From positions 271,892-335,891 of the forward strand of contig NZ_BMMS01000001.1 of NCBI RefSeq assembly GCF_014646055.1: 64,000 bases of DNA, written 5' to 3'. The position numbers and the translations under genes were made by a program. Below are positions 48,886-55,961 of this stretch, in pieces. The stretch comes from Wenjunlia tyrosinilytica. GTDB lineage: Bacteria; Actinomycetota; Actinomycetes; Streptomycetales; Streptomycetaceae. The notes beneath the pieces are model-generated. The model was not told the origin of the DNA. It ran no database searches and saw nothing but the letters and a program-made list of their open reading frames with translations. Every line of letters begins with the position of its first letter. Positions within the stretch are counted from its first letter, which is position 1.

Positions 48886-49208
48886 ACGCCGTCCATCCTT
48901 CCGGTCCCTGCCCCGATCGGCTCCCCCGGCGGAGGGGGACGAGCGACAACGTAGGGGGCGGCCTCGCCGGAATCGAGCACACGAGGGTCCTTCGGATCGG
49001 TGATCACCCGATCGGATGCGACGACGACAGAAGTAGGCAGACCGCGCCATGACGCTCGGTCACACGGGGAGGAGAAGGAGCCGAGGGTGACTTCCCGCGG
49101 CGACGGTCGTTGTTCCTCGAAACGCTCCTCTCGCCCGTGGGACCGGGCCCGGCAGTCGGGCCGCCGGGCGGGGGGAGAGAGCGTGGAAGGCCGTGCGGGA
49201 CGCTCAGG
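48886..49208. other. Promoter region of the exporter, left flank of the integrated element
   Basis: 323 bp of probable original chromosome between the exporter start and the left 45-bp repeat. No gene is supported. It would have been the sequence just 3' of the target tRNA before integration. Confidence 0.5.
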
Positions 49209-49253
49209 GTGGGGCGGGTGGGACTCGAACCCACGACCCACGGATTATGAGTC
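49209..49253 (-). repeat. Left attachment site: partial tRNA copy (45-bp direct repeat)
   Basis: This copies the 3' part of the tRNA at 55888-55961, from the anticodon loop through the T arm to the acceptor end. It matches 55887-55931 at 43 of 45 positions (differences at 49236 and 49239). The anticodon stem cannot close with the sequence on its other side, so it is a remnant, not a working tRNA. A tyrosine integrase would recombine such a pair. Confidence 0.85.
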
Positions 49254-49867
49254 GCCAGGATTCCCTGCCGGACGATGACGGGTGATGCCACCCCGTCCCG
49301 TACATGGAGGTCTGAGGCGGTGGACTGTCCGCCTCAGACTCTGCGGTGATACGGCGTCCAACGGCGTCCGGGCTCACCGCGGGCTCACGCGGGGCGCCCT
49401 GTGCGGGCTGTCCCCCATGTGGCCTACAGCGGGCGGCGAGACCCGGGCGACGTGATCGCGGTATGCCCTACGCGTGGGCCGGACAGAGGCAGGCCCGGCC
49501 TCTACGGCCGACCGGGGCAATCCCCGACTCGGACGGTGCGGCCCCTCACTGCCGGCGGTGGCGTGGGGGCCGTCTGTCGATGAAGGGGCCGCCGCGTAGC
49601 GCCGGCCGGCTCGGCTTCGGACCAGTGCTGTGGGGTAGTGGGCTGGAGGCCAGCCCTACGTCTGAGGTTCCTCCCATGGGGACGATGACGGGTTCACCGG
49701 CACGGATCGAAGCACCCGCGCGGTTGTAGATCGGCGCTCAGCAGGGTCCACCTGCTCGATCAGTACGGCAACTTCGGTGGCTGAGGATTGGCCGGTTGGC
49801 GTTCGGTGGACCGGCGTACCTCGGCGTCCGTGGCCTGCCCGCTTCAGTGTCGTGCCTCTGGTGACCG
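49254..49867. other. Non-coding left end of the element
   Basis: 614 bp between the left repeat and the methyltransferase stop. Apart from an 11-bp-stem hairpin (49310-49339), I see nothing clear. On the minus strand a stretch from about 49856 to 49657 (containing TEVAVLIEQVDPAERRS) is open, but it has no start codon and runs on from the methyltransferase stop area, so it is either a decayed fragment or chance. Confidence 0.5.
49310..49339. terminator. Hairpin near the left attachment site
   Basis: GTCTGAGGCGG (49310-49320) pairs perfectly with CCGCCTCAGAC (49329-49339) around an 8-nt loop, 57 bp inside the left repeat. It could be a terminator or a recombinase accessory site; nothing here decides between them. 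Confidence 0.4.
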
Positions 49868-50611: not shown

Positions 50612-50904
50612 GCGGACCGCGGACCTCTCTCGGGGTGCGACGGATCGGGACATGCTGCGGGCGGCGCCCGGCAGCGGCCCACTCGGGGCATGTGGCCGGC
50701 ACAGTAGCGGGGTTTTCCGGCCGCGCCCTGAGCCGTCTCGCTGGTTGCGTCGGCTGGGTGAGGGGTCGTTTGGGGGGATCGCCGAGGTGAGCCCAAAAGG
50801 GGTCATGGGATGATCTTGAACCGCTGAGAGGCCCGGCCCGTCACCCGTTCGGCTCAGTGTCGTTGGTGGTGATGTTGACCATCGTCTGGGGCCTGGAGTG
50901 GGTT

Positions 50905-51552
50905 GTGACCTCGATCGAGCGGACCCCGTATCCGCGGTTCAAGCTACGTGATCGACTGGGACCTGATCGAATCGCAGTTCCGGCCCCCGATGCGGGTGGC
51001 CGTCTCGGTGCGCGAGGGGGCGATCTCCCCTCCACGCTGCTGAAGCGGCTGCGGTCGGGCTCCAAGAAGAACGCCACCTACGCCGCGTTCCGCGAGGTCG
51101 GCCGTGTGATCCGCACCGTGCAACTGCTGCGCTACCCCTCCGACGCGCCGCTGCGCAGGCGGGTTACCGCGGCGACGAACAAAGTCGAGTCGTTCAACCG
51201 GTTCTCCCAATGGGTCGGCTTCGGCAACCGCGGCGTCATCGCCGACAACGACCCGGTCGAGCAGGAGAAGGCGATGAAATTCAACGCTCTGCTCACGAAC
51301 GCGGTCATTTTTCACAATGCCCTGGACATCGCCGAGATCGTCCGCCACCTGCTGGAGGAGGGCTGGACGATCGAGCCGGAGGACCTGGCGCACATCTCGC
51401 CGTACCTGACCGAGCACATCAACCGGTTCGGCGAGTACAGCACGCACGAGCTCGGCATCCAGCCCGAGGCGTACGACCCGAAGCTGGACGTGGACTTCAC
51501 CCCGCTGCGCGAGGCAGACCCGGCCGCGGCCGGCTTCGGTCAGGCCGCCTGA
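50905..51552 (+). pseudogene. Tn3-family transposase, internally deleted
   Basis: The frame starts with VTSIERTPYPRFK, the beginning of Tn3-type TnpA proteins, then jumps to the C-terminal part. From 50946 to about 51030 the genuine TnpA frame is a different one (YVIDWDLIESQF...VSVREGAIS), and one lost base or two extra bases near 51030 bring STLLKRLRSGSKKNATYAAFREVGRVIRTVQLLRYPSDAPLRRRVTAATNKVE back into the starting frame. The remaining 170 residues (WVGFGNRGVIADNDPVEQEKAMKFNALL to the end) are conserved. Most of the roughly 1000-residue protein, including much of the DDE core, is missing. Confidence 0.85.
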
Positions 51553-51676: not shown

Positions 51677-52021
51677 TCAGGCTGAGTTCTTCGACTGCGA
51701 CTCGCGGCCTTGTGTGCGCAGGTGCTCGTTGATGCGCCGGGCTTCTTCGAGCTGGTCTTCGAGGATGACGATGCGGCAGGCGGCTTCGATGGGGGTGCCC
51801 TCGTCGACGAGTTCGCGGGCGCGGGCGGCGATGCGCAGCTGGTAGCGGGAGTAGCGGCGGTGGCCGCCTTCGGAGCGCAGCGGGGTGATCAGGAGGTGTT
51901 CGCCGAGGGCGCGGAGGAAGGCGGGGGTGGTGCCGAGCATCTCGGCGGCCCGGCCCATGGTGTAGGCGGGGTAGTCGTCATCGTCGAGACTGTCGACGGG
52001 ACGGGAACTGGCAGGGGGCAT
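51677..52021 (-). CDS. MerR-like helix-turn-helix regulator
   Basis: 114 aa from the ATG at 52021, with GAAGAGG upstream. The HTH is [56 protein letters not shown], the pattern of HspR/MerR-like DNA-binding domains, followed by a short helix ([18 protein letters not shown]) that could dimerise. There is no effector domain. It travels with hsp18 and DUF2267 on this element, so a role in heat-shock control is plausible but unproven. A 32-bp perfect palindrome lies 28 bp upstream. Confidence 0.8.
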
Positions 52022-52718: not shown

Positions 52719-53348
52719 TCAGGGGGGAGTGAGGGTGTCGAGCCGGGCGGCGAGGTCGGGGTGGGCGGCGGCCAGGTGGGGGCGGGTGGCGGTCAGGGGG
52801 GCGATGAGGTCGGCGGGGTCGTTGTGGGCGAGGGCCGCGTGGAGCTCATCGAGCGGGCGGCGGGCGGCGGGGGGAAGGTCGGTGAGGGCGGTGATCTGGC
52901 CGGCGAGGCGGCGCAGGTCGGCCGCATTGCGGTGGGCCCAGGTGGCGGTGTTGCGGTCGGCGGCCCGGGCCTGACGGGTGGCCGTCACGCGCTGTTCTCC
53001 GGTGGTCCCGGCCGGGCCGGGGCGGCCGCGCAGGTAGCGGCGCTCGGCGGCCTGGCGGCTGGCGACACCCAGGGGAGAGGCGAGGTCGGCCCAGCTGGCG
53101 CCCGCGTCCCGGGCCGTTTCGATCAGGCCGGTCTCCCATCCGGCGAGCCGCTCACGTACCTGCCGCAGCAGCATCAGCGAGGCGAGGGCCTGCTCCGGGG
53201 CCGGCCCGGCGCCGAGGGTGTCGGGGGTCTCGTGCTGGGCGTCGCGCAGGGCGTCGTCTATGGCTTTCAGGGCCGCCGCCGCGGCGAGGAACGACGCCGG
53301 GCTGTGGGCGTCGGCGTCGGTGGAGACCGGCTGGTCGGGTGCGGGCAC
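52719..53348 (-). CDS. rheA: RheA-like heat-shock repressor of hsp18
   Basis: 209 aa from the GTG at 53348, preferred over the GTG at 53354 because the GGGAGG box is then properly spaced. The protein is helical and Ala/Arg-rich with no classical HTH signature except the region [23 protein letters not shown] near residue 95. It has the position and divergent layout of RheA, the thermosensing repressor of hsp18 in Streptomyces albus, and the spacer carries two copies of the RheA operator type. The protein match is from memory of the family; the operator match is the stronger evidence. Confidence 0.8.
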
Positions 53349-53365
53349 GGGCACCTCCCTCGGGT

Positions 53366-53384
53366 TGTCATCAAGTAGACGACA
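53366..53384. promoter_or_regulatory. RheA-type operator 1 (one mismatch)
   Basis: TGTCATC, five bases, then GACGACA, one base off the perfect half. It lies 18 bp upstream of the rheA start and would allow autoregulation. Its centre is 26 bp from that of operator 2. Confidence 0.7.
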
Positions 53385-53390
53385 TCGTGT

Positions 53391-53419
53391 TTGTCATCCA
53401 TTGGATGACATGTTACAAC
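53391..53419 (+). promoter_or_regulatory. hsp18 promoter overlapping operator 2
   Basis: TTGTCA (53391-53396) and TACAAC (53414-53419) with a 17-bp spacer form a housekeeping-type promoter. The operator covers the -35 and most of the spacer, so bound repressor would block polymerase. The start codon is about 58 bp downstream of the -10. Confidence 0.55.
53392..53410. promoter_or_regulatory. RheA-type operator 2 (perfect)
   Basis: TGTCATC, five bases (CATTG), then GATGACA: an exact match to the inverted repeat known as the RheA target upstream of hsp18 in S. albus. Confidence 0.85.
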
Positions 53420-53476: not shown

Positions 53477-53908
53477 ATGTTGATGCGCACTGACCCCTTC
53501 CGTGAGCTGGACCGGCTGGCGCAGCAGCTGATGGGCCCGGGCACCTGGTCGAAGCCGTCGGCGATGCCGATGGACGCCTACCGCGAGGGTGACGAGTACG
53601 TGGTGGCCTTCGACCTTCCCGGCGTCAGCGCGGACGCGATCGACATCGACGTCGAGCGGAACATGCTGACGGTCAAGGCGGAGCGCCGGCCGGTGGCGAA
53701 GGCCGACGACGTGCAGATGGAGCTGTCCGAGCGGCCGCTGGGCGTCTTCTCCCGCCAGATCGTGCTCGCCGACACCCTCGACACCGAGCACATCAAGGCC
53801 GACTACGACGCGGGCGTGCTGACCCTGCGCATCCCGATCGCCGAGCGTGCCAAGCCCCGCAAGATCTCCATCGGCGTCGGGACCGGCCACAAGGAGATCT
53901 CCGGCTGA
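53477..53908 (+). CDS. hsp18: Small heat-shock protein HSP18 (alpha-crystallin family)
   Basis: 143 aa from the ATG at 53477 with GGAGG upstream. The start [20 protein letters not shown] leads into an alpha-crystallin domain (residues about 35-130) with [31 protein letters not shown] and [34 protein letters not shown], the last with the GVLTLxIP signature and a C-terminal IxI-type motif. It is an ATP-independent chaperone that holds unfolding proteins in large oligomers. It is controlled by divergent rheA, and the two DUF2267 genes follow. Confidence 0.95.
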
Positions 53909-54010: not shown

Positions 54011-54406
54011 ATGACTCTGCGACGCGAAGCGTTCCTCGACCGCGTGAAGGAGCGCGGCGAGTACGGCACTGTGGAGGAAGCCGAGCGCGCGGCCCGTGTG
54101 GTGCTCGCCCTGCTGGGCGCGCATCTGGTCGGCGAGGTTCGCGCCCAGCTCGCGGCACGTCTCCCGGAGGAATTCGCCCTGATCCTGCTCAACCCGCTGC
54201 AGAGCGCCGAACCGCTGCCCCCGGAGCGGTTCGTCCGGGCGACCGCGGCCTGGATCGAGGGCGCCACCGAGCAGACCGCGACCTGGGACGTCAGCGCCGT
54301 GCTGTCCACGGTCGCCGACACGGCCGGCGAGGACCTGCTGGGGCAGATCCTGCTCCAGCTCCCCGCCGGCTACGACCTCCTCTTCGGCCGCCCCCAGCCC
54401 ACCTGA
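54011..54406 (+). CDS. DUF2267 family protein (copy 1)
   Basis: 131 aa from the ATG at 54011, about 100 bp after hsp18. The sequence REAFLDRVKERGEYGTVEEAERAARVVLALLGAHLVGEVRAQLAARLP is the DUF2267 pattern: a helical domain in which E-A-x-R-A-x-x-V-LxxLGxxLxGEVRxxLAAxLP recurs. It ends with AGEDLLGQILLQLPAGYDLLFG. Small soluble helical proteins of unknown function, often linked to stress genes. Probably in one operon with hsp18 and copy 2. Confidence 0.85.
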   Translation: MTLRREAFLDRVKERGEYGTVEEAERAARVVLALLGAHLVGEVRAQLAARLPEEFALILLNPLQSAEPLPPERFVRATAAWIEGATEQTATWDVSAVLSTVADTAGEDLLGQILLQLPAGYDLLFGRPQPT

Positions 54407-54459
54407 CCCCTACCTCGGTGCCACACACCCGCACCGCTCTACGAAAGGCATGCACTGCA

Positions 54460-54903
54460 GTGATCACCGACGTGCGCGTACCGGCTGAGGACCAGCAGCC
54501 GTACTCGACGGCGTATGAGCAGATGCTGGAGAAGGTCCTCTACGAGGGCGCCTACCCCACCCGCGAGAGAGCCGAGGAAGCCGTCCGCCTTGTTCTCGCG
54601 GGGCTGGGACGCCAGCTGACCGGCGACGAACGCGTCGACCTTGCCGCCTGCCTGCCCCTGGAAGCCGCACGTGTCCTCACCGCACAGATCCCCGACACCC
54701 AGCCGCTGACCGGCTGGGCCTTCGTCAAGTACCTCGCCGCCCGCTCCGGTGCCTCCCTGGCCACCACCCGCTGGGACACCGGCTCCGTCTTCGCGGCCGT
54801 CGCCGCCCACGCCGACCCTGACCTCATCACCCGCATCCTCCACCAGCTCCCCACCGGCCACGCGCTGTTGTTCGGCCGCGCCGAACTCACCTCCGCCGCG
54901 TAA
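54460..54903 (+). CDS. DUF2267 family protein (copy 2)
   Basis: 147 aa from the GTG at 54460 (GAAAGG 11 nt upstream); the frame opens 42 nt earlier at another GTG with no site. YEQMLEKVLYEGAYPTRERAEEAVRLVLAGLGRQLTGDERVDLAACLP and the closing DLITRILHQLPTGHALLFG parallel copy 1, so the two are ancient tandem duplicates, now well diverged. The stop is followed within about 10 bp by the truncated integrase, so the junction of cargo and element lies here. Confidence 0.85.
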   Translation: MITDVRVPAEDQQPYSTAYEQMLEKVLYEGAYPTRERAEEAVRLVLAGLGRQLTGDERVDLAACLPLEAARVLTAQIPDTQPLTGWAFVKYLAARSGASLATTRWDTGSVFAAVAAHADPDLITRILHQLPTGHALLFGRAELTSAA

Positions 54904-54904
54904 A

Positions 54905-55942
54905 CGGCACCGGCACCCCGGGAAGCCGTTCCGGAGGATCACCGGGGCTGCCACGCGGCAGCGCATCCGCTCCACGTTGCGGGCGGCGCTGAACGCGGCG
55001 ATCGCCCGGCAGCTCATCACCTTCAACGCGGCAGAGCACGTGGAGCTGGCGTCCGGCAAGCGACCCAAGGGCCTGCTCTGGACGGAGGAACGGGTCCGCC
55101 ATTGGGAAAGGACCGGTGCGAAGCCCTCCCCGGTCATGGTGTGGACGCCGGAGCAGCTCGGCCGCTTCCTGGACGCAGCCGAGGGCGACCGGCTGTACCC
55201 CATGTTCCATCTCATCGCCTTCCGCGGTCTGCGGCGCGGTGAGGCGGTGGGCCAGAACTGGATGGACATCAATCTGGACCGTGCCGAACTGACCGTCGCC
55301 AAAGAGATCGTCCAGGACGGCGGGACGACGTACGAGTCGGAGCCGAAAACGGACGGCAGCGCCGCCACCATCCACCTCGACAGCCGCACGGTGACAGTAC
55401 TGAGGGCACACCGCGCCCGCCAGAACCGCGAGCGCCTGAAGTGGGGTGAGGCATGGCAGGACACGGGCAAGGCGTTCACCCGGGAAGACGGCAGCTGGCT
55501 GCACCCGGAGGCGGTGTCCGACGCCTTCCGCCGCATCGTCAAAGCAGCCGGCCTACCGCCGATCAACCTCCGGGATCTCCGCCACGGCGCGGCCACCCTG
55601 ACGCACGCGGGTGGTGGTGATCTTCACACGATCAAGGAGACCTTGCGGCACTCGACCATCACCCTCACGTCCGACACGTACAGCAACCTCCTGCCGGACA
55701 TCGACCGGGAGGTCTCGGAGAAGGCCGCGCGGCTCGTGCCGCGATCCCGCCCGAAGGCGGCGGGAGGCACGTCCGGGCTCACTTCGGGCTCACCTGCCAC
55801 CGCCCAGGGAAGCGTCTTCCCCCTCGCAAAGATCGACCTCAAGCCCTTCAGCGAGGTCAACAGGGGGATGCCGGTCGATCCGCTCGGTGGGGCGGGTGGG
55901 ACTCGAACCCACGGCCGACGGATTATGAGTCCGCTGCTCTAA
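54905..55942 (+). pseudogene. Tyrosine integrase, 5'-truncated
   Basis: About 340 residues remain, from ATRQRIRSTLRAALNAAIARQLITFNAAEHVEL (end of the core-binding domain) to the tRNA. The N-terminal arm-binding part, roughly 100 residues, is gone and no start codon is apparent. The catalytic domain has the first Arg (IAFRGLRRGEAVG), the late HST...LTSDTYSNLLPD with the nucleophilic Tyr, and LRDLRHGAATL where the usual His of the HxxR motif is Arg. The last 18 codons run into the attachment site. It is related to integrases of actinomycete integrative plasmids that use tRNA genes. Confidence 0.85.
55887..55931 (-). repeat. Right attachment site within the intact tRNA
   Basis: This is the other copy of the 45-bp repeat, covering the 3' half of the complete tRNA at 55888-55961. 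Since this copy is complete, the element restored the tRNA 3' end upon integration, as is usual for tRNA-targeting integrases. Confidence 0.85.
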
Positions 55943-55961
55943 CCGGCTGAGCTACCGCCCC
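55888..55961 (-). tRNA. tRNA with CAT anticodon (Met or lysidine-type Ile)
   Basis: 74 nt on the minus strand, from GGGGCGG to CCCGCCCCA. The acceptor, D (GCTC...GAGC), anticodon (CGGACTCATAATCCG) and T (GTGGGTTCGAGTCCCAC) stems all close. The anticodon is CAT. It could be elongator Met or Ile-CAU; sequence alone does not settle this. CCA is not encoded in full. Confidence 0.9.

Follow-up and report, generated by a model that had tools for sequence, protein, structure and literature searches.

Paired RheA-type operators between rheA and hsp18 of Wenjunlia tyrosinilytica and its relatives, and the mobile DNA around them

Genes and palindromes of the locus

In the window (the whole stretch of 64,000 nucleotides of Wenjunlia tyrosinilytica DNA that was analysed) a gene for a RheA-like repressor of 211 aa (52719-53354, minus strand) lies divergent from hsp18 (53477-53908, plus strand), which encodes a small heat-shock protein of 143 aa (PF00011 HSP20, E 2.8e-21). 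Over 197 aa the repressor shares 64% identity with a protein encoded on a plasmid and named HSP18 transcriptional regulator in RefSeq, and the hsp18 product is 84% identical to the Hsp20 encoded beside that regulator on NZ_CP108443. No Pfam or NCBIfam family was assigned to the 211-aa protein. Its predicted structure (AlphaFold, mean pLDDT 76.6) is helical, with a helix-turn-helix-like stretch at about residues 88-110; a PDB fold search with this model gave no reliable match and searching solved structures by sequence gave none, results that are uninformative on the novelty of the fold. It is the only rheA-like gene of the genome. Judged by homology and gene arrangement, the repressor and the divergent hsp18 qualify as a RheA/HSP18 system; the regulator is already known, and the locus adds a member to these systems.

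Two palindromes of 19 bp, to which no strand is assigned, occupy the intergenic region. Operator A, on the rheA side (53366-53384), reads TGTCATC-AAGTA-GACGACA and departs from a perfect palindrome at one position, whereas both arms of operator B, on the hsp18 side (53392-53410), are perfect (TGTCATC-CATTG-GATGACA). The region thus contains TGTCATC-N5-GATGACA, which we take to be the RheA operator consensus. A preliminary description of this DNA had proposed paired RheA operators serving both genes, and on direct reading of the sequence this holds: the coordinates are exact, the centres (53375 and 53401) are 26 bp apart, and the position between the divergent genes would allow control of both. 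When the whole 8.49-Mb genome was searched for exact matches to TGTCATCN5GAYGACA, A and B were the sole hits. An operator-like site with one mismatch on contig 89 probably arose by chance; no repressor or heat-shock gene is evident as its partner.

Downstream of hsp18 lie two DUF2267 genes that belong to the conserved gene set, at 54011-54406 (PF10025, E 1.2e-22) and 54418-54903 (PF10025, E 1e-23; the true start may be further in), both on the plus strand. They follow hsp18 in most relatives as well, a steady association. Near the switch there is also a gene for an HspR-like MerR protein of 114 aa (51677-52021) that scores under the curated cut-off; such a gene is present in several relatives, e.g. 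at loci L001 and L083.

The operator pair and putative promoters across relatives

The same intergenic region was collected from 80 loci of named genomes, 49 loci of a scan across the family (273 of 395 genomes gave a match, in some cases a weak one) and three plasmid loci, and the sites of every locus were read. After removal of duplicates, the alignment on the hsp18-side site comprised 117 distinct regions; the arms of this site are perfect in 110 of them, and a partner site was sought at offsets from 19 to 100. The best partner was found at 26 bp in 105 regions and at 27 bp in 11, with zero to four mismatches, nearly always three or fewer; in the one remaining region, L115, there was only a partner with four mismatches, at 27 bp. 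In shuffled upstream DNA a partner with at most three mismatches turns up in about 0.1% of cases, compared with 116 of the 117 real regions, although these regions are related to one another and the counts are therefore not counts of independent events. The twin sites are real and well above chance. Both sites are also present at more distant loci (about 62-70% identity), among them those whose protein is named HSP18 transcriptional regulator.

The sites also co-occur with rheA. No site with three or fewer mismatches was found at the nearest small-heat-shock genes of rheA-less genomes (nine loci, 60-66% identity, which may belong to another Hsp20 subfamily), while the same search at close small-heat-shock loci of rheA-bearing genomes found sites in six of six. 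The double operator is accordingly the normal state of a known heat-shock switch and the family norm, rather than a peculiarity of the W. tyrosinilytica element. Within the limited coverage of a keyword search of the literature, we found no description of paired RheA operators or of carriage of the switch by Tn3-family elements.

In the 105 regions whose sites are 26 bp apart, conservation extends beyond the palindromes. All of them have the hexamer TTGTCA starting one base ahead of site B (in the window at 53391-53396, plus strand, overlapping the operator), and all have, 17 bp further, TACAAC preceded by an equally invariant TG (TGt-TACAAC, 53411-53419, plus strand). TTGTCA-N17-TACAAC looks like an hsp18 promoter with a putative -35 and a putative extended -10 element, in which case the spacer between the hexamers would be filled by B. 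A consensus promoter scan of the region lists neither this promoter nor the one on the rheA side, so that the case for the hexamers is their conservation. The 7-bp spacer separating A and B is conserved as well, and on the minus strand it offers CANGAT in these 105 regions (CACGAT at 53384-53389 in the window), which we tentatively regard as a weak candidate for the -10 box of rheA. With this -10 box the start of rheA would fall inside A, in agreement with the published coverage of the rheA -10 box and start by RheA in a Streptomyces relative (PMC11754652). Site A itself has conserved arms, a mostly free centre and, in 82 of the 105 regions, the same departure, GAcGACA.

Proposed regulation and its alternatives

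In Streptomyces relatives RheA is a repressor that also regulates its own gene, and on heating its DNA binding and repression are reversibly lost, according to PMC11754652, which cites Servant et al. 2000. As described there, the RheA-HSP18 system of S. albus G and S. albidoflavus J1074 resembles the present one in its divergent rheA and hsp18, its intergenic operator and its autoregulation, and the coverage of the rheA -10 box and start by RheA is a placement that we infer for W. tyrosinilytica also. The difference is in the number of sites: for S. albus G and J1074 the same source describes one natural operator (rheO) and a second, engineered one (TRS02), whereas W. tyrosinilytica and its relatives have two natural sites. 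TRS02 was placed after the hsp18 start, unlike the natural pair, which lies upstream.

By analogy with these systems, RheA probably binds at the W. tyrosinilytica locus, controls its own synthesis and senses temperature reversibly. We consider it quite likely that this is a standard rheA-hsp18 switch with a double operator, in which RheA represses both hsp18 and itself from a strong site B and a weak site A. At normal temperature RheA bound to the near-invariant B would obstruct the hsp18 promoter between its two hexamers as well as the upstream part of the rheA promoter, and RheA on the weaker A would block the start region of rheA. Heat would inactivate RheA reversibly, upon which both genes would be expressed, and because of the weaker A, rheA would be made again and shut off at a repressor level different from that of hsp18. 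Such unequal thresholds, and a division of labour between A and B, are the most conjectural part of this picture; what the sequences show directly is the sites, their conserved spacing, their association with rheA and the conserved promoter-like hexamers.

One may also suppose that the operator of hsp18 is B only, and that A serves solely in the autoregulation of rheA with no effect on hsp18. The position of A at the putative rheA start, upstream of the likely hsp18 promoter, agrees with this, as does the fact that A is the more degenerate of the two sites; the fixed spacing of 26-27 bp, on the other hand, suggests some coupling between A and B, even if the rheA promoter lying between them could fix the spacing just as well. 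We give this reading somewhat less than an even chance. The published binding data raise a more radical doubt, since RheA shifted a native J1074 promoter probe to a single band, with a second band appearing only once an operator had been added (PMC11754652), which is not what two independent natural sites would predict. Cooperative filling of the two sites, or a weak A, would explain the single band, yet the band could also mean that RheA does not recognise A, that the conservation of A comes from the rheA promoter and leader, and that RheA binds B only. In A the palindromic arms are conserved and the 5 bp at the centre vary freely, a pattern typical of dimer sites and not of promoters, which makes this explanation improbable.

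That the palindromes serve a regulator other than RheA, for instance the HspR-like MerR protein (gene at 51677-52021), hardly seems credible. The gene is close by, and is found in some relatives as well, but the palindromes accompany the divergent rheA-hsp18 pair at nearly every locus, are missing from the rheA-less genomes, and match what is taken to be the RheA operator consensus. The double RheA operator is the preferred reading. Its spacing of 26 bp corresponds to about 2.5 helical turns, so that two bound dimers would sit on opposite faces of the DNA. Repressors that bind as double dimers are known from DtxR/IdeR, where the dimers share overlapping sites. The likeness, which is one of analogy only, is that short palindromic DNA could accommodate two dimers on opposite faces; DtxR/IdeR differ from RheA in belonging to another family and in the overlap of their sites.

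RheA is a protein thermosensor already in use as a genetic switch in Streptomyces, and a conserved natural second operator would bear on the leakiness, the induction temperature and the autoregulation of this switch, both for understanding it and for engineering with it.

The tRNA-Met island and Tn3-family transposons

The switch cassette is located within a segment of 6.7 kb bounded by a 46-bp direct repeat of the 3' end of a tRNA-Met gene. The right att-like copy (55886-55931) is the 3' end of the tRNA-Met (CAT) gene itself, found by ARAGORN at 55886-55961 on the minus strand, and the left copy (49208-49253, plus strand) is 96% identical to it; the repeats thus flank the segment at a tRNA gene, as expected of a tRNA-integrating element. 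Roughly 90-110 bp inside the att copies there are 24-bp repeats (49365-49388 and 55770-55793, with GGGCTCAC twice in each), which could possibly be integrase arm sites. The island also contains a DNA methyltransferase gene (PF01555, 49868-50806). A tyrosine integrase gene (PF00589; 54905-55942, plus strand) runs as an open frame into the tRNA-Met gene, and is a fragment: its alignment with a homologue of 520 aa begins at residue 230 of the latter, so that about 225 N-terminal residues are missing, and the part encoding them is absent from the 64,000-nt window. The full-length integrase of a self-mobile element is thus not there. In comparisons with other genomes, the similarity of the cassette often ends at about 54922, beside this fragment, and synteny with a same-genus genome begins at the tRNA-Met gene. 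Across the 200 genomes searched, the tRNA-Met side was matched and the far flank was found in W. tyrosinilytica only.

The other recombinase of the island is a remnant as well. It is the C-terminal part of a Tn3-family transposase (50857-51552, plus strand) that covers only residues 253-389 of the 389 in PF01526 and 815-952 of the 954 in NF033527, with an internal deletion near 50945; similarity to loci L021 and L149 breaks at 50944/50946. Beside it is a lone terminal repeat of Tn3 type (50773-50820, plus strand), which matches both ends of the elements at loci L001 and L003, so the window holds neither two inverted ends nor a full transposase. A second, identical Tn3 end exists at L149 (G000 contig 86, 2578-2616), together with further sequence resembling the L001 transposon, more of it than the window copy has; transposase might be supplied in trans from there.

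With a truncated integrase and only a transposase remnant, the island as it stands should not be self-mobile; it is a degraded remnant whose own recombinases should be unable to move it. The preliminary description had placed the switch on an integrative element, and the att-like repeats and the presence of an integrase bear this out, whereas the truncation of that integrase and the state of the neighbouring Tn3 transposase do not. That the island is nevertheless an intact self-mobile integrative element, as the 46-bp repeats at tRNA-Met and the arm-site-like 24-bp repeats near both of them might suggest, is very improbable: besides the shortened integrase and the single Tn3 end, an empty tRNA-Met site was sought among the 200 genomes and not found, and the far flank has no match elsewhere that would define one.

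Comparison with relatives points to a different vehicle. In S. endocoffeicus (L003) inverted Tn3-type ends (L003:1015 and 4721) enclose rheA, hsp18, a pair of DUF2267 genes and a resolvase gene (PF00239), and TGGTT stands on both sides as a perfect 5-bp target duplication. The inverted repeats, the resolvase and the duplication are shared with Tn3-family transposons, and from them it follows that the switch probably moved as transposon cargo. This element differs from Tn3-family transposons in that its cargo is a heat-shock switch and in that no transposase is encoded between its ends, so that one would be needed in trans. In S. griseocarneus (L001) two Tn3 ends, 6.9 kb apart and flanked by ATGTA and ATGTC, surround the same genes and sequence shared with the window; L004, L014 and L021 have one Tn3 end each, and at the remaining loci none was found within the flank examined. 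On these sequence comparisons, transposon carriage is well supported for S. endocoffeicus, likely for S. griseocarneus and suggested for the window by the leftover end, and the portable unit appears better identified as Tn3-family cargo than as the tRNA-Met element.

Transposon carriage, if true, would help to account for the scattered occurrence of the switch in related strains. It would also give the actinomycetes an example of mobile heat-shock genes, next to the proteobacterial stress-tolerance locus, in which small heat-shock genes have likewise spread by horizontal transfer. Judging from published accounts, that locus differs in its bacteria and gene content, is a larger genomic island, and confers resistance to heat and chlorine. 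A still more elaborate possibility is that the switch is a two-operator, two-threshold device, with two RheA dimers offset by about half a helical turn and a selected weaker A at the rheA start, that has spread among actinomycetes as Tn3-family cargo, making temperature sensing a transposable trait; taken as a whole, we find this rather unlikely.

The idea of a self-contained portable heat sensor therefore survives in part. The island does not appear to be mobile by itself, but the switch is found in a Tn3-family transposon in relatives, and relatives of RheA occur in 44 plasmid records (none was found in phage records). Many close relatives of RheA in plasmid records (about 76-85% identical, e.g. 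L084:3890-4522) carry the RefSeq label 'type III effector protein'; since their genes adjoin hsp18 and have paired operators, this name looks like an error.
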